NCBI GenBank assembly: GCA_913056215.1
Contig: CAJXMN010000001.1
Span: forward strand, 25,522-89,521
DNA from: an uncultured Flavobacteriales bacterium
GTDB taxonomy: Bacteria; Bacteroidota; Bacteroidia; Flavobacteriales_D; Crocinitomicaceae
DNA: 64,000 nucleotides
Direction of reading: 5' to 3'
Below the pieces are notes generated by a model. That model worked only from the letters and a program-made list of their open reading frames with translations. It was not told the origin of the DNA and ran no database searches. This document shows, piece after piece, positions 7,852 to 51,159 of this stretch. Positions within the stretch are counted from its first letter, which is position 1, and each line of letters starts with the position of its first letter. Both the position numbers and the translations under genes were made by a program.

Positions 7852-10800
7852 TTAATAATTACGACGCAGATCAACATATCCCTTCAGTGTCACTGCTCCA
7901 TCAGCCGTTTCAACCACTACGACCACAAAATACGTAGCGTCTGGAAGCTCATCTCCACTATTATTTCTACCGTCCCAGGTGTTGTCATAATTGTTCTTTT
8001 GATAAACAATGTTCCCCCATCTGTTAAAGACCTTCATTTCATTGCGTTCGTAAGCGTCTATTCCTCGAACCACAAAGTAGTCGTTGTCTCCATCACCATT
8101 TGGTGAAATTCCTTCAGGCATTTCCAGTGTCATTGGCTGTTCGAGAATGATTGAGGCATTTGCTACACATCCATTTTCATCACTCACCACAACATTGTAC
8201 GTTCCTGCAGGCAACCCAGATATGTCTTGAGTTGTGTCTCCAGTTGACCAGTTAAAGTCGTATGGTGCTGTTCCACCAAACACTTCTGTCTCAATAGAAC
8301 CATTTGTAGCATCGTATGGCTTCACATTGTAACCGCCGCCTAGATCAGTACTGAACAATTCAATTTCGATCGGATCAGGTTGAGTAATGGTCGTTACTAG
8401 TGTGTCTTGACATCCGAAGTTATCGGTTACAATTACTTCGTAGTCATCAGCTGCTAATCCTTGAACGGCAGCAGTTGTGTCTCCATTTGACCAATCGTAA
8501 GTATAAGGTCCGTTCCCTGTATTTACAAGTACTGTCGCCGTACCGTTATCTCTACCAGCACAAGTTAAATCTGTTGATGAAATCGATACATCAAGGTTAG
8601 ATACACTACCTACTTCAGCTTCCATGACAAACGTACATCCATTATCATCTGTCAATGTCAACTCATAACTACCCGCTACAACCGTATCAAGGTCTGCAGA
8701 TGTCTCTCCATTACTCCAGTTGTAAGCGTAAGGAGCCGTTCCTCCAACTGCATCGATTGTGATTGTTCCATTTGGCGCCTCACATGTAGCAGGAGTTGAT
8801 GTGTATGTCACCTGAATTGTATCTGGTTCAGCTACATCAATTGAAGACTGAACGGTACATCCATTATTATCTGTAACTGTTACATCGTATGTTCCAGCTG
8901 TTACTCCTGTAAGATCTTCATCAGTTGAGCCGTTGCTCCAGTTGAAACTGTATGGAGCTAATCCTCCATTAACTGTAAGATCTATTTCACCGTCACTTCC
9001 TCCATTACATAGTACATCTTCTACTGTTGATGTAACCTCTAGTAGAGCTGGTTCTGCAATTGAAGCCGTATCAGCTGTTGTACATCCATTGTCATCTGTT
9101 ACAAGCACGTCATACGTTCCAGGTACTAACCCTGTAAGGTCTTCAGTTGTACTTCCATTACTCCATACAAAGCTGTAAGGAGAAGTTCCATTTGTAACTG
9201 TTAAGTCCATTGAACCGTCTCCCAGTCCATTACATGAAACATCTGTTGCAATAATATCAGCTTCAGGCAATGGGAATACTGTAACATCGAATGAGCATTG
9301 TGCCGTATTTCCATGGATATCTTCCACTTCATATGTTACTGTCGTTGTTCCTACTGGGAAGTCTGAACCACTTGGTAAACCAGCGATCATCGTAACGTTA
9401 GCAACTCCACAATTATCATCTACTATCGGTGCTGTGTAGTTCACGATTGAATCACAAGATTCAATGTCAGCGTTACAAGATATCGTTGGAAGCTCCGTGT
9501 CATTCACAGTAACATCAAATACACACTGTGTTACATTTCCAGCAGCATCTGTACCTGTGTAGGTTACTGTTGTAGTACCTTGTGCAAAGACATCACCAGG
9601 ATTATGTGTTGAAGTTACGTTAACCGTTCCACAATTATCTGTAAATGTTGGTGGTGTCCATGATACAATACCCTGACATTCTCCTGGGTCATTACTAACT
9701 ATGATATTTGTTGGACAATCAATCACTGCTGGAGCTTGATCGTCTTCTACCACGATGTCATAAGTACATGTTGATGTATTTCCTGCATCATCAGTTACTG
9801 TCCACTCTACTGTTGTCGTTCCGTTGTTAAACGTTACGCCATCGAGTGTTGTTCCTGTTCCAGTTGTTGCTCCAGTTAATTCATAGTCAATTGTGATTGT
9901 TGTACAGTTATCTGTTGCTACAACATCCCACCCTGTTCCTGTATTTGTATAAGTACAAACTCCAGCATCAGCTACTACTGTTTGTGAGCCTGATACTCCA
10001 CAGTCTGAAATGATCGGTGCTTGCGTATCCTCTACATTAACATTTTGAGTACACGTTGCTGTATTTCCATGAACGTCTGTTACTGTCCATGTAACTACCG
10101 TCGTTCCTACTGGGTAGATAGACGGTGCATCATTCGTTACTGATGCAACTCCACAATTATCTCCTGTTACTGGTGTTCCTAAGTTGACTCCAGAAGCATC
10201 TGCTTCACAAACGCCTGCATCAGCTACTACTGTAACATCTGGTTGACATAGGATCGTTGGGTTCTCATTGTCTTCAACTATTACGTCGAAAGAACAAGTC
10301 GTTGAGTTTCCTGCTGCATCCACAGCTGTATAAGTAACCGTTGTTGTTCCTACAGCAAATACATCTCCGCTGTTATGTGTGCTTGTAAATGAATCCACTC
10401 CACAGTTATCCGTTGAAGTTGGTGCTGTCCATGTAACTATAGCGTTACATTCTCCTGCATCATTCGAAACCGTAATATTAGAAGGACATCCTGTAATTAC
10501 AGGGTTTTCGTCATCTGTTACCGTAATATCAAATGAACATGTTATACTGTTTCCAGCATCGTCAGTAGCTGTATACGTTACTGTAGTTGTTCCTACTGGG
10601 AAGACATCTCCACTGTTTGCAGTACTTGTAAACGTGTTTATTCCACAATTATCTGTTGCCGTTGGTGCTGTCCAGTTTACAACTGCTCCACAAACACCAG
10701 GGTCATTCGTTACTGTTACATTTGAAGGACATCCTGCAATAGCCGGCAGCTGATCATCTTCAACAACGATGTCATAAGTACATGTTGATACATTTCCTGC

Positions 10801-13800
10801 AACATCAGTTACCGTCCACGTTACTGTCGTTGTTCCATTGTTAAATGTTACACCGTCCAATGTCGTTCCTGTTCCAGTTGTTGCACCTGTTAAAGCGTAA
10901 TCAACTGTGATCGTTGTACAGTTATCTGTAGCAACTACATCCCATCCTGTTCCAGTGTTCGTATACGTACAGCCTCCGGCATCAGCCACTACTGTCTGTG
11001 AACCCGATATACCACAGTCTGAAATGATCGGGTCTTGATCATCTTCTACTACGATGTCGTAAGTGCACGTTGATTCGTTTCCTGCAGCGTCTGTTACTGT
11101 CCACGTTACTGTCGTTGTTCCATTGTTGAATGTTACACCGTCTAGTGTTGTTCCTGTTCCAGTAGTTGCTCCTGTTAAAGCGTAATCAACTGTGATTGTT
11201 GTACAATTATCTGTCGCTGTTACGTCCCATCCTGTTCCTGTGTTTGTATATGTACATACTCCGACATCAGCCACAACTGTTTGCGATCCTGATACACCAC
11301 AATCTGAGATGATCGGTAGTTCAGTATCTTCAACTACAATATCATAAGTACATGTTGATACATTACCTGCGTTATCTGTTACTGTCCACGTTACTGTTGT
11401 TGTTCCATTGTTGAATGTTACACCGTCTAATGTTGTTCCTGTTCCAGTTGTTGCTCCTGTTAAAGCGTAATCAACTGTGATTGTTGTACAGTTATCGGTT
11501 GCAGTTACATCCCATCCTGTTCCTGTGTTCGTATACGTACATACTCCTGCATCAGCCACTACTGATTGTGAACCTGATACGCCACAGTCTGAAATGATTG
11601 GTAGTTCAGTATCCTCAATAACAATGTCATAAGTACATGTCGATACATTGCCAGCTGCATCTGTTACTGTCCACTCCACTGTTGTTGTTCCGTTGTTAAA
11701 CGTTACTCCGTCTAATGTCGTTCCCGTTCCAGTTGTTGCGCCAGAAAGGGCATAATCAACAGTAATTGTTGTACAGTTATCCGTCGCTGTTACGTCCCAT
11801 CCTGTTCCGGTGTTCGTATACGTACAGCCTCCGGCATCAGCCACTACTGTCTGTGAACCCGATATACCACAGTCTGAAATGATAGGGTCTTGATCATCTT
11901 CTACTACGATGTCGTAAGTGCACGTTGATTCGTTTCCTGCAGCGTCTGTTACTGTCCACTCTACTGTCGTTGTTCCGTTGTTAAACGTTACACCGTCCAA
12001 TGTTGTTCCAGTTCCTGTTGTCGCTCCTGTAAGTGCATAATCAACAGTTGTCGTTGTACAGTTATCTGTTGCTGTTACGTCCCAACCTGAACCTGTGTTC
12101 GTGTAAGTACAAGTTCCCAAATCAGCCGAAACTGTTTGCGATCCTGTTACTCCACAGTCCGAGATGATCGGTAGTTCAGTATCTTCAACTACAATATCAT
12201 AAGTACATGTCGATACATTTCCTGCAGCATCAGTTACTGTCCACGTTACTGTTGTTGTTCCATTGTTGAATGTTACACCGTCTAATGTTGTTCCTGTTCC
12301 TGTTGTTGCACCTGTTAAAGCGTAATCAACCGTGATCGTTGTACAGTTGTCTGTAGCAACTACATCCCATCCTGTTCCAGTGTTTGTATACGTGCATACT
12401 CCAGCGTCAGCCACTACTGTTTGTGATCCTGAAACTCCACAGTCTGAAATGATCGGTGCTTGCGTATCCTCTACATCCACATTTTGTGTACACGTTGCTG
12501 TATTTCCGTGAACATCTGTTACCGTCCATGTTACTACCGTTGTTCCTACAGGGTAGATAGCTGGAGCATCATTCGAAACTAATGCAACGCCACAATTATC
12601 TCCCGTTACAGGTGTTCCTAAGTTCACTCCAGAAGCATCTGCTTCACAAACGCCTGCATCAGCGACTACTGTTACATCTGGTTGACAAAGGATCGTTGGG
12701 TTTTCATTGTCTTCAACTACTACGTCGAAAGAACAAGTCGTTGAGTTTCCAGCAGCATCAACCGCTGTATAAGTAACCGTTGTTGTTCCTACGTTAAATA
12801 TATCTCCACTGTTGTGTGTACTTGTGAACGAATCCACTCCACAGTTATCTGATGCAGTTGGTATAGTCCACGTTACAACTGCCCCACAAGTTCCAGCGTC
12901 ATTTGAAACTGTAATATCTGAAGGACATCCGTTAATAACTGGGTTTTCATTATCTGTTACTGTGATGTCAAACGAACATGTCGTTACATTTCCAGCATCA
13001 TCCGTTGCAGTATACGTAATTGTTGTTGTTCCTACTGGGAATACATCTCCACTGTTATGTGTACTCGTAAAGCTCGTTACACCACAGTTGTCATTAGCTG
13101 TTGGTGCCGTCCATGTTACAGCAGCGCCACAAACTCCAGCGTCGTTTGTCGTATTCACGTTTGACGGACATCCCGCAATTGTTGGAAGCTGATCATCTTC
13201 AACAACGATGTCATAAGTACATGTTGATACATTTCCTGCAGCATCAGTTACCGTCCACGTTACTGTCGTTGTTCCATTGTTAAATGTTACACCGTCCAAT
13301 GTCGTTCCTGTTCCAGTTGTTGCACCTGTTAAAGCGTAATCAACTGTGATCGTTGTACAGTTATCTGTAGCAACTACATCCCATCCTGTTCCAGTGTTCG
13401 TATACGTACATACTCCTGCATCAGCCACTACTGTTTGTGAACCTGATACGCCACAGTCTGAAATGATCGGGTCTTGATCGTCCTCTACTACGATATCATA
13501 AGTACATGTTGATACATTTGATGCATCATCGGTTACTGTCCACGTTACTGTTGTTGTTCCATTGTTGAATACAACTCCATCTAGTGTTGTTCCTGTTCCA
13601 GTTGTTGCACCCGTTAAAGCGTAATCAACCGTGATCGTTGTACAATTATCTGTTGCAGTCACATCCCAACCTGATCCTGTGTTTGTATATGTACATGCTC
13701 CAGCATCAGCTACTACTATTTGTGAGCCTGATACGCCACAATCTGAAATGATCGGTGCTTCAACATCTTCTACTACGATGTCATAGCTACATGTTGATAC

Positions 13801-16512
13801 ATTTCCTGCGTTATCGGTTACTGTCCACTCTACAGTTGTTATTCCATTGTTGAATGTAACTCCATCTAGTGTTGTTCCTGTTCCAGTTGTAGCTCCAGTC
13901 AATTCATAATCAACTGTGATTGTTGTACAGTTATCTGTTGCAACTACATCCCATCCTGTTCCAGTGTTTGTATATGTACATACTCCAGCGTCAGCTACTA
14001 CTGTTTGTGAGCCTGATACTCCACAGTCTGAAATGATCGGTACTTGATTGTCTTCTACCGTTACTACAAATGTACAACTACTGGTGTTTCCTGAGGCATC
14101 TTCTGCCTCCCAAAGAACTACCGTGTTCCCAACATTAAACGTAACACCATCCAGTGTTGTCCCTGTTCCTACTGTTGCTCCACTCAGCGAATAAGAGAAA
14201 TTATCTATACTACAATTATCCGAGATAGTTGCATCCCAAGCGATACCTGAGTGACTATAACTACATATCCCAGCATCCGAAGGAACAGTTTGTGCTCCAA
14301 CACAAGAAACAGATGGATTCGTGTTATCTGGAATAGTCGTGACCGTTGCACTTGCATTTGCTGTACATCCGATATCATCTGTAATCAGTACGTCATAAAC
14401 ACCAGGATCCAAGGAGCTTATATCTTGTGTCCCTGAAGTAAATCCTGAAGGACCAGACCAATCATACGTATACGGGCTCGACCCACTGAAAACACTTAAA
14501 TCAATCGCTCCATCGCTAAATCCTGGACATGTCTCTTGAGAGCTTACCGCCGTTGAAGTAACGATCGAATCTTGAATCGTAATATGGAATGTGTAATAAC
14601 AGAAGTTTATATCATCCGGTATTGCGAAATAAGTACTTGTTCCTGGCGTTGCAGGAAAAGGGTTGTTCTCATCATACTGAGTAGAAGTTGGTGTTACATT
14701 GTTCTCATCATAAAAACTCAACCCAGGAGGAAAATGCTGTGCTATTGAATCATAGGGTAATACAGCGTCGTCAAAATCACAAAAGACAAACTCTCGAACT
14801 GAAGGAGTTCCTGAACAATTATCCGCAATGTGTTGTGCTGCATCTATGTCCACAATAAGCGGATCTGTTATCGGCTGACCAACACAAGGTGCTGCATCTT
14901 GAAACCCTTGAATGAATGGTAAATCAAAATTAGACCCTGAAACTGCTCCAACACCTGTTGTGGTACCTCCATTGAGTACAACTTGCGGTGGACAATCAGG
15001 ATTTGTTAATAGATTACAATCTGAAGTAACCTGTAGCTGAAATGATAACTCGGCCAATACTGAATCTGGATTTCCTACTGGTGGTAAAGGTAAAGTACCC
15101 ATATCCCAAACTATTGATCCTGTAGGACCCAAAAGTGGATCGAAATAAGCATTATTAGGTGTTGGTGAAGGCGTGAAGTTAATCTGTGTTCCAATACTCG
15201 CCGGTACAAATGAAGTATTATAAGGAACTGGAATAGTTATGACAGTATTGTCTATCGCTTCTGTACCTTTGTTTTTAATCTCAAGATTATAATCAATTAT
15301 TTCTCCCGGTTCGGCAGAAATACTACCCGAACCAACAGGCTGTCCATTGATAAATTCTGTTGAAACTAAAGCCTCTACATCAGGAATATAAGCATCTACT
15401 GCCATCGCTATACAGAAAATGGTATACGTATCTTGTGTTGAACCGTACCTAAATCGGGTAGAGGTTTGTCCATTCGTTATAACTGTATTGCCAGGGTTAT
15501 TAATATTAAACGAGGAAATATCTAACCCAGTGTTATTTTGTAAAGAAGGGTTCCTTGGATTTCCTCCCGTTTCTACAGAACTATTGAAAAAGTTGCCTGT
15601 TGAGTTTCCAGCATGATTTAAAGTAACCCAGTTATTATCTTGCCAATCACGTATCTGAAAGTAATCTCCAGATATTCCAACATCACCTTCTCCAGCCATC
15701 AGCCCTAGTTTCATATTAATTGGTCCCGACTGAGCTGTTTGAAATCCAGAGACTGGAAGTTCATAATTCACCGTTGCGTTACCTTGCACGTAAGCATGAC
15801 CATCAAAAACAGTAATATCTCTCCATTTCATCACAGAATTTTCATACACGACGATCATACCCCAACCGCCGTAATATCCAGTTGCTCCTCCATTTCCTTC
15901 GATGAGTGCCATATCGGCCAACGTATATTCGCCAATACCATGAGTGTTCACATAATCAGTGATCTCAACATATGCCGAGTACATATTACCATGTGCGCCA
16001 TCTGGATAATAGATGTTTCCTGGATTTGCCTCAAACTCAGTGTAGTTGACAGCCCCTGGCCCTTTAAATTGGACTTTTCGTTTATTAAAAGTCTTGGTTA
16101 CTCCACCTTTAGTTACATCAAACTCCTCAGGACTCGAGAACATACTCGCTCTTCCTGTCCAATATAGTCCTGCATATATAATGTTTGAACATTCAGGTAC
16201 TGCGCCGTTTTCTGTTGAAAGCTCAAGGTTTGCAGATGAGGAGTTGAACGTATTCGGATCACCATCAACATCCACATAAACCATGTTGTTTTGACTATTG
16301 TTAGTAAAATTTCCATAAGGATCCACTGTAAGGTTGGTGTTCCCTAACATCGCATAGTCTCCCTGAATACTATAGATCAATTTTGAAGGAGAATAAATAG
16401 AACTCCGCTGAGCAAATGCTTTTACTACCTGAGCATTTGCATCATTGACCAACACAAAAAAGAGCAGTAAAAACGCTCCCGTCAATTTTTTTAGTAGGTA
16501 CATATTTTTCAT
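7852..16512 (-). CDS. Giant HYR/SprB-repeat adhesin with gliding-motility-associated C-terminal (CHU_C, type B T9SS) domain
   Basis: 2886-aa ORF; signal peptide; HYR-type repeats ([43 protein letters not shown]); SprB-like repeats ([36 protein letters not shown]); CHU_C end ([19 protein letters not shown]...[12 protein letters not shown]). Confidence 0.93.
   Translation of the reverse strand: [2886 protein letters not shown]
8140..9270 (-). repeat. SprB-like repeats (~70-75 aa) in the adhesin C-terminal third
   Basis: Repeated pattern CxGxxDGxxxxxVxxGxxPYxxxWSNGxTxxxLxxxxxGxYxVxVTDxxGC. Confidence 0.8.
9740..14040 (-). repeat. Intragenic array of ~95-aa (285-bp) [8 protein letters not shown]-type units interspersed with HYR units
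   Basis: Ten near-identical PIISDCG(V/I)(S/T)GSQ... units counted in the translation; spacing confirmed at 285 bp in DNA (around 11307 and 11592) and 855 bp (10971 and 11826). Confidence 0.9.
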
Positions 16513-49360: not shown

Positions 49361-51025
49361 CTATAAAAGTGTTCTTCCTCTCTCCGTCAGACGATAGCGT
49401 TGTTGCTTACTTTTTTCATATTCCGGAATCGTAAACCTCAACAAGCCCAAATCCATCAGTGGTTTAATGTAAAAGCGTTTATTACGCGTTTGATAGCTCA
49501 GCCCCAGCCCCTCTTCGAGCATTGATCTTCCTTTTTGAGGCTTCGCTTCACAAAAGCGCAAAAGTGCCAAGTGTTTAGCATCTAATTGATCTATACTATA
49601 CTCCGTTTCTTTTTTTCGATTACTTCGATAGCCTTCCTGCCTCTCTTCCAGGGTCAAATGCTGAGAAGGAATATCGCCAATTTCTTCCATTAACCAATCT
49701 AGATACGATTCAATACGTGCACTTAGGAAATAAGGTAAACTCAATAAATAATACGTTTTCCCTTCTCGTGTTTTGAGTTGGTCAATTTGCCGTTTTCCTG
49801 CATAAAAGCGAATCGCATAGTTCAATGGTGAGCGATCCATAAAAACGTGCAATGATTTTAAGGTTCCTGTGGCACCCGACTTCACCTCGATTGGGATTAA
49901 ATTTCCTTGGTAACGATAGAGGTAGTCTATTTCTGCATCCGATTGTTTCTTTTGACGGACCCAAAAGTGTAGTTTATCCAAACTCAATGATTGAAACGAA
50001 AGCAATTCTTGACCGACCAAATGTTCAATCAATGTCCCGTTATAGACTTTGTTGAGATCATCAGTTCCAATGACTTCTTGCTGTAAACCAGCAAAATAAT
50101 TGATCAATCCACTATCCAAAAATTGGATACGTGGCGTTTTTTTATAGTCAGGTGCTAAAGGAAGCGTAGTTCCAGTATCCGGATACAAAATATGCAATAA
50201 GTGCGTTTTTTCGAGCGCACGCAGCACCTCTCCAATTGCTTTTGACGGATAGTTTGAATTTCCAAAACGCTGAAAAGTTGTACGGTGACCTGCTTTTAAC
50301 ATAGACTGATGAATGCAGAATCGAATCAATTGCAGTTGTTGCTCACTTTTCGCATATTTTTCGGCATCCTGCAAATAAGAACTGATCAGTGCATCATAGA
50401 TAGGACCAAGCGCCGTAATGTCGCGGTGCGTTATATAATGTTGAATGATTTCTGGCATCCCGCCCAATAAGGCATACGTATGAAATGCTCGTAACAGTGC
50501 TTTTTCAGCATATTTTTCGATGGGCGTTTTTAGGTATTCCTCAAGGAGCTGATTTTCTCTTGTTGCTCTCAGAAATTCTTCGAAAGAAACGGGGCGCAAC
50601 ACTTTGTACTCGACCCGACCAACTGGGATGGTGAGGTTTTTACCTAAAAGGGTTTCCAACATGCTTCCTGCTGCAATTACTGCTAGACCAGGCATTTCTT
50701 CCTTAAAATAACGCAAAAGGTTCACTACTTCTGGTGACTCCTGAATTTCATCGATAAACAACAAGGTACTTTCAAACGCATTCAGTCGCATTCGTTTTTC
50801 TAGAAAAATGCGCGTGATTAATTGATCAATATCTGAAGTCGATTCAAATAATTCGGCATCTTTCGATCGTTCCAAGTTAACGTAAATATATTGCTCGAAT
50901 TGTTTGCCAAATTCATGAATGAGTGTCGTTTTACCAACTTGCCGGGCACCACGAATAACCAGCGGCTTGCGCGATGAGGACCTACGCCATTGTTCCAGTG
51001 CTTTTATTTGTGTGCGATAAAACAT
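49361..51025 (-). CDS. ATP-binding protein (AAA_14 / DUF4143)
   Basis: RKPLVIRGARQVGKTTLIHEFG; LLFIDEIQ; DUF4143-like C-terminus. Confidence 0.92.
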   Translation of the reverse strand: MFYRTQIKALEQWRRSSSRKPLVIRGARQVGKTTLIHEFGKQFEQYIYVNLERSKDAELFESTSDIDQLITRIFLEKRMRLNAFESTLLFIDEIQESPEVVNLLRYFKEEMPGLAVIAAGSMLETLLGKNLTIPVGRVEYKVLRPVSFEEFLRATRENQLLEEYLKTPIEKYAEKALLRAFHTYALLGGMPEIIQHYITHRDITALGPIYDALISSYLQDAEKYAKSEQQLQLIRFCIHQSMLKAGHRTTFQRFGNSNYPSKAIGEVLRALEKTHLLHILYPDTGTTLPLAPDYKKTPRIQFLDSGLINYFAGLQQEVIGTDDLNKVYNGTLIEHLVGQELLSFQSLSLDKLHFWVRQKKQSDAEIDYLYRYQGNLIPIEVKSGATGTLKSLHVFMDRSPLNYAIRFYAGKRQIDQLKTREGKTYYLLSLPYFLSARIESYLDWLMEEIGDIPSQHLTLEERQEGYRSNRKKETEYSIDQLDAKHLALLRFCEAKPQKGRSMLEEGLGLSYQTRNKRFYIKPLMDLGLLRFTIPEYEKSKQQRYRLTERGRTLL

Positions 51026-51046
51026 TTTACGTTATTCATTTCAACA

Positions 51047-51054
51047 CAAATATA
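51047..51054 (-). promoter_or_regulatory. Bacteroidota-type -7 element TATATTTG upstream of the DUF4143 ATPase
   Basis: CAAATATA on plus strand, ~22 bp from the start codon. Confidence 0.5.
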
Positions 51055-51060
51055 CAAAAC

Positions 51061-51159
51061 AACCTTATAGTAAGGGTTAATAATAAGCTTTTTAACACTA
51101 AAGTAAGGGTTATTTTAAGTGTTTTACAGCCCAAAGTAAGGGGTGTTTGTTCTAAATAA
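51061..51159 (-). repeat. Three direct repeats at 33-bp spacing in promoter region (minus: AACCCTTACT)
   Basis: AGTAAGGGTT at 51069 and 51102, AGTAAGGGGT at 51135; starts 33 bp apart both times. Confidence 0.8.

Follow-up and report, generated by a model that had tools for sequence, protein, structure and literature searches.

DUF4143 (PDC-S01) ATPase-nuclease genes are often preceded by evenly spaced repeats that probably serve as their own operator

Background

PDC-S01 is among the most abundant candidate defence genes of prokaryotes and codes for an ATPase fused to a PD-(D/E)XK nuclease; for most candidate systems of this kind, validation is pending (PMC12988326). In a survey of the rumen, it was the commonest single locus (PMC13356809). 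PDC-S01 is an abundant defence candidate lacking experimental validation. In the open-licence literature searched, we found no account of how PDC-S01/DUF4143 genes work, and no report of their regulation or of repeats located upstream of them.

MalT-type STAND regulators are ATP-dependent proteins and recognise groups of direct repeats located at promoters. In autoregulated toxin-antitoxin operons and winged-helix-controlled defence systems, a potentially harmful gene that regulates itself has several operator sites across its promoter. Orc1/Cdc6 initiators, which are AAA+ proteins, and iteron-type Rep proteins place winged helices on repeated DNA sites.

The gene described here (49361..51025, minus strand) lies in a 64-kb stretch of DNA, referred to below as the window, and encodes a protein of 554 amino acids. 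It belongs to the PDC-S01 (PADLOC), AAA_14-DUF4143 or COG1373 ATPases, as judged from its match to profile PDLC04788 (E 2.7e-175), which spans aa 1-446. While upstream repeats and regulation of PDC-S01 are undescribed in the literature searched, this gene does possess such repeats, to which its product is inferred to bind. The model of the protein matches a MalT complex in a Foldseek search; MalT, however, activates other genes and contains no nuclease, whereas the window protein has a PD-(D/E)XK part and its motif is not enriched away from its own gene. Orc1/Cdc6 and iteron Rep proteins resemble it in the use of repeated sites, but DUF4143 repeats are located at the predicted promoter of the gene, mostly on chromosomes and without any sign of an origin. 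The term "iteron" used in the original prediction finds no support in its replication sense. In contrast to toxin-antitoxin and winged-helix defence systems, regulator and putative effector of DUF4143 genes are proposed to be one polypeptide, and the spacing of the sites is fixed within clades.

Our results place the repeats of the window in a widespread pattern: an uncharacterised family of ATPase-nucleases often has its own evenly spaced DNA address in front of the gene. Each protein probably binds at this address and controls itself, although the self-binding is inferred.

Results

Repeats in the window

The minus strand contains the 10-mer AACCCTTACT at positions 51078-51069 and 51111-51102 and the 10-mer ACCCCTTACT at 51144-51135, with start-to-start distances of exactly 33 and 33 bp. 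Three minus-strand repeats of this exact period before the DUF4143 ATPase gene had been predicted, and they are confirmed. The common core AGTAAGGG is found in three copies, 33 bp apart, across the predicted promoter of the gene. The similarity exceeds the 10-mers, the motif of the window clade being 19 bp long (ACCCTTACTTTGTTACAAA). The gene-proximal copy ACCCTTACTATAAGGTTGT (51059..51077), where the pattern used in the genome search matches, occupies the -33 position of the predicted promoter; copy 2, ACCCTTACTTTAGTGTTAA (51092..51110), lies 33 bp upstream of it, and copy 3, CCCCTTACTTTGGGCTGTA (51125..51143), a further 33 bp upstream, all on the minus strand.

The strongest self-match within 270 bp upstream of the gene has period 33 and score 21; none of 20,000 dinucleotide-shuffled sequences scored as high (p = 5e-5, the lowest value that the test can give). 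When 709 overlapping 270-bp stretches of the window were compared, with a coding array at 10.7-14.3 kb excluded, score 21 was reached only by the two stretches holding the sites; apart from this protein-coding tandem array, the 33-bp repeat is the best short-period repeat of the 64 kb. A lone pair of 10-mers is not significant in a sequence of this length, and the repeat becomes significant through its third copy, the similarity beyond the 10-mers and the conservation described below. Spacing by about whole helical turns, which is expected of a phased operator, is seen both here (33/33 bp) and in the survey (22-23 and 31-34 bp). The excluded array (10755-14169) is long and has a 285-bp period, in 6 and 3 copies with 82-85% matches; as the period is a multiple of three, its units correspond to about 95 aa, and it probably encodes a repeat-domain protein.

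Some other identities of the repeats could be rejected. A CRISPR-like array does not fit, the repeats being imperfect, 19 bp long and few in number, with no cas-like gene among the ORFs adjoining the window gene. A structured RNA leader was rejected as well: there is no Rfam match in the window, and the repeats are located upstream of the predicted -7 element. In the window's own genome, the motif has three sites at the gene and three elsewhere, compared with nine for a reversed-pattern control; a wider regulon with this motif in that genome was rejected for lack of any excess.

Repeats before close homologues

Pairs of AGTAAGGG spaced by 30-36 bp were searched for in one genome per species, which yielded at least 114 loci. 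Ten loci among the matches listed, not counting the window gene, had a DUF4143 homologue (40-66% identity) adjoining the pair, always at 33 bp and with the pair directly upstream; nine of these come from Bacteroidota and one from a gammaproteobacterial MAG. Among the matches listed, not one of the 137 pairs with spacing of 30-32 or 34-36 bp was situated beside a DUF4143 ATPase. A protein search of 396 Bacteroidota genomes, blind to the repeats, retrieved, in addition to the window gene itself, 12 homologues with 41-49% identity. Each of the 12 is preceded by repeats at 32-33 bp, the weakest case being L127 (p 0.015-0.035). Absence of similar repeats before homologues would have counted against the original prediction; their presence in 12/12 supports its view of a dedicated phased operator, in which binding, cooperativity and repression remain inferences.

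Cores of the homologues' repeats drift (ACCCTTACT, CCCTTGTT, CCTATATT). The 19-bp motif model found 53 sites in 19 of 21 upstream regions, and successive sites were separated by 33 bp (29 times) or 32 bp (five times), with no other spacing. A second paralogue of the window clade, present in the window's own genome (L263, G000:C19), has suffered a frameshift between the P-loop and Walker B; it still has three 33-bp repeats, with the core ACCCCCTATTTTGTTA.

Survey of the DUF4143 family

An upstream self-match with p<0.01 was detected in 90 of 200 DUF4143 genes (45%) and in only 12 of 176 control genes (7%; Fisher p = 4e-18). Neighbouring genes of the same loci served as controls, and their 7% may include some contamination. 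The floor of the survey p-values was 1/401, start codons were set by distance from the P-loop, many of the genomes are draft or metagenome-assembled, and most of the sample belongs to Bacteroidota. Periods fall into two classes, 22-23 bp (25 genes) and 31-34 bp (53 genes), with few between, and some genes have up to 5 or more copies. Repeat-positive genes include those of Gammaproteobacteria, Chlamydiota and Bacillota as well as genes on contigs labelled as plasmid or phage; plasmid copies in Acinetobacter, Glaesserella and Criblamydia possess the repeats. On the tree, the period behaves as a clade trait, and one large clade is nearly devoid of repeats. Since about half of the DUF4143 genes, including this clade, have no detectable repeats, the device is not universal.

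Spacing and motif both follow the protein. The period class is identical in all 509 pairs of genes with at least 30% identity, and the more identical two proteins are, the more similar are their motifs (Mantel r = 0.55, reached in 0/2,000 permutations). Homologues in other families and phyla retain related motifs. Going beyond the original prediction, we found the same architecture, with other motifs and periods, before homologues and before most of the other DUF4143 paralogues of the window's genome: period 22 in L267, 32 in L265, 23 in L266, a weak 33 in L264, and 33 with the core CCCCTATTTTG in L263. Not one of 55 pairs of co-resident paralogues has a motif in common; eight of these pairs have 40-51% identity and the same spacing class, and their motifs still differ. 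We do not claim selection for this difference, because motifs of the palindromic 32-bp clade differ from genome to genome to nearly the same degree.

Position relative to promoter and start codon

The median distance from the end of the repeat block to the presumed start codon is 27 bp, and in 70 of 78 genes the distance is within 80 bp. Bacteroidota have the -7 consensus TANNTTTG. An exact box of this kind is present in only 20 of 68 repeat-bearing Bacteroidota genes, and the promoters are consensus guesses, none of them mapped; in 19 of those 20 genes the predicted promoter region overlaps the block. The -7-like element TATATTTG of the window (51047..51054, minus strand) is indeed located as predicted, at 51054-51047, although it is recognised from sequence alone and has no experimental support.

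The original prediction put the nearest copy at about -33. This holds for the window, but the place need not be exact, as several relatives have a copy abutting the -7 box. In the window clade, such a copy directly follows the -7-like box in L004 (TATATTTG-CCCTTACTTTG), L128, L130, L131 and L132, an arrangement in which the transcription start would be hidden under the bound protein. The window gene, L052 and L125 have their last copy immediately before -7, on its upstream side. Both arrangements would suit a repressor, and the upstream one an activator too, as far as unmapped promoters allow.

The protein

The window protein scores above cut-off with both PF13173 and PF13635. Its AAA_14 ATPase domain (aa 19-152; 50570..50971, minus strand) contains the Walker A sequence GARQVGK and the Walker B residues D92-E93, both invariant. 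A predicted winged helix-turn-helix (aa 228-302; 50120..50344, minus strand), with the recognition helix at 261-273, is followed by the PD-(D/E)XK nuclease part of DUF4143 (aa 324-445; 49691..50056, minus strand), where E365, D367, E380 and K382 are invariant and Q339 nearly so. Catalytic residues of ATPase and nuclease are thus intact and invariant or nearly invariant in 15 homologues. An extra winged helix of the Fic-like_C type is located at the C-terminus (aa 488-547; 49385..49564, minus strand). Tested representatives of other DUF4143 clades also match the PDC-S01 profile.

AlphaFold2 modelling of the full 554 aa with 8 sequences gave a poor model (pLDDT 64.5), whereas aa 1-446 with 15 sequences gave pLDDT 87.9 and pTM 0.86. 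The latter comprises AAA+ part, helical lid, winged helix (228-302) and nuclease part, the domain names being our own reading of the elements. The best Foldseek match in the PDB is Cdc6/Orc1 on origin DNA (2qby, E 2.9e-07), followed by ORC, the MalT complex 8bob, NLR and Avs STAND proteins, TnsC and MuB. Because whole-chain TM scores are low (about 0.2-0.4), these matches indicate the kind of fold only, not close kinship. The predicted fold is that of an ORC/STAND-like ATPase with a winged helix and a PD-(D/E)XK nuclease. No solved structure of the ATPase-DUF4143 body was found by sequence, and a scan of viral contigs with the single window protein as query detected no relatives.

Homologues without the extra C-terminal winged helix retain ACCCTTACT. 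This helix is thus dispensable for the motif and was rejected as the reader of the repeats; for the same reason, the winged helix of the ATPase body (aa 228-302) is the likely reader, a role that is inferred. Within its predicted recognition helix, we found no residues separating the motif variants among 24 proteins, a set with too few independent changes.

Discussion

We propose that the repeats are the gene's own phased operator, and consider it probable that every such protein attaches to the operator of its own gene and acts there as a repressor of its own promoter; self-binding is inferred and repression is untested. The existence of a cis-element is well supported: we observe the repeats, their conservation, clade-fixed spacing, change of the motif with the protein, location at the predicted promoter, and no wider regulon in the window's own genome. 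That the gene's own protein binds them, cooperatively and as a repressor, is an inference made without binding or expression data. Recognition of the site by the gene's own protein is the simplest assumption, because the site changes with the protein, follows it across hosts, differs between paralogues of the same cell and is not enriched elsewhere in the window's genome; the co-variation of motif and protein lends indirect support to specific protein binding. Each DUF4143/PDC-S01 protein would recognise a clade-specific motif present in at least two copies over its own promoter. With copies separated by two or three turns of the helix (22-23 or 31-34 bp), a spacing which suggests adjacent protein units on one face, proteins sitting side by side would block the promoter and hold a potentially dangerous nuclease at a low level. 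The likely consequence, again inferred, is that a nuclease with the potential for harm keeps its own gene repressed. Some trigger, such as infection or a changed nucleotide state or oligomer, might lift the repression; trigger and defence role are speculative.

Other explanations have to be weighed against this one. The repeats may be, instead of or besides an operator, a parking or assembly platform: the ORC/STAND-like ATPase would be loaded there to stand guard, and a phage that interferes with the complex would set free or switch on the nuclease. Several points speak for such a platform: the structure resembles both origin-bound Orc1/Cdc6 and immune ATPases of the STAND type, Avs among them; the nuclease residues are invariant; PDC-S01 is named as a defence candidate (PMC12988326); and some genes have 5 or more copies. 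We regard it as unlikely, since a platform would not need repeats that are nearly always at the predicted promoter, a median of 27 bp from the gene, and since two copies are often sufficient. A different, host-encoded regulator could also bind the repeats: phased direct repeats are common operators, and there are no binding data for the gene's own product. The original prediction had left the choice between autoregulation and an unidentified regulator. The former is favoured over the latter, because the motif follows the lineage of the protein, across families and phyla, and not the host. Plasmid copies come with repeats at the usual spacing, paralogues of one genome each have a different motif, and no common neighbouring regulator gene was seen at the annotated plasmid loci; a host regulator is therefore quite improbable.

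Still less can be said for a mobile element that consists of the gene and has the repeats as its ends, iterons or excision sites, a reading that we hold very improbable. Gene contexts are varied and include plasmids, iteron periods are similar, and in the own-genome paralogue L265 the stop codon is followed, 13 bp on, by a repeat copy. Yet copies lie on the upstream side in a single orientation, the genes are mostly chromosomal, and copies at the 3' side are not general (17 word matches against 5.6 expected, with L265 the clear case). Related repeats at both ends, as required of a transposon, are therefore missing as far as 3' flanks were inspected, L265 excepted; the 3' word matches of L052 and L148 in downstream sequence look like chance, L265 being the real exception. 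Chance similarity in AT-rich intergenic DNA could account for a single 10-bp pair, which by a rough estimate is expected at some spacing several times in 64 kb. It cannot account for a local p = 5e-5, matching spacing in 12/12 homologues and two sharp period classes; the survey refutes it, and we give it practically no credence.

The proposed self-addressed operator offers an immediate handle on these genes, as a cognate DNA site can be read from the sequence before many PDC-S01/DUF4143 genes. This gives a substrate for binding, footprinting, structural and reporter work, natural pairs of protein and site from which specificity can be learned, and a testable proposal for what keeps a solitary nuclease gene harmless. 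More tentatively, and with considerable doubt, PDC-S01 may be imagined as a self-addressed immune device, an ORC/STAND-like nuclease seated on its own clade-specific promoter repeats. One complex would be both repressor and infection sensor, phage interference would free expression together with the nuclease, the geometry of assembly would set the spacing, and the motif would diverge between co-resident copies.

Variants of the repeat architecture

Several loci show arrangements of their own. L265 (G000:C58) has the extra copy ATTCTATTCCTAAA about 13 bp past its stop codon, the sole clear 3' copy found. A 2.6-Mb gammaproteobacterial MAG (G409) has 23 DUF4143 matches, including L313, L314, L318 and L322; L313 and L314 have long arrays of 23-bp units, and the motif differs from gene to gene. 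Window-clade repeats are direct, unlike those of two other clades (L193-L216, L251, L322 and L223-L255), where many of the single units form palindromes, such as TCACCAAA..TTTGGTGA at 32 bp and TTTACTCAA..TTGAGTAAA at 22 bp. The DUF4143 genes L209 and L217 have 53-bp repeats with the palindrome ACCGTGAAA..TTTCACGG. Sister ATPases of the DUF234 type (L345, L346, L347) carry palindromic sites, spaced by 15 bp, close to the gene start; with three cases in 118 genomes, these are suggestive only.
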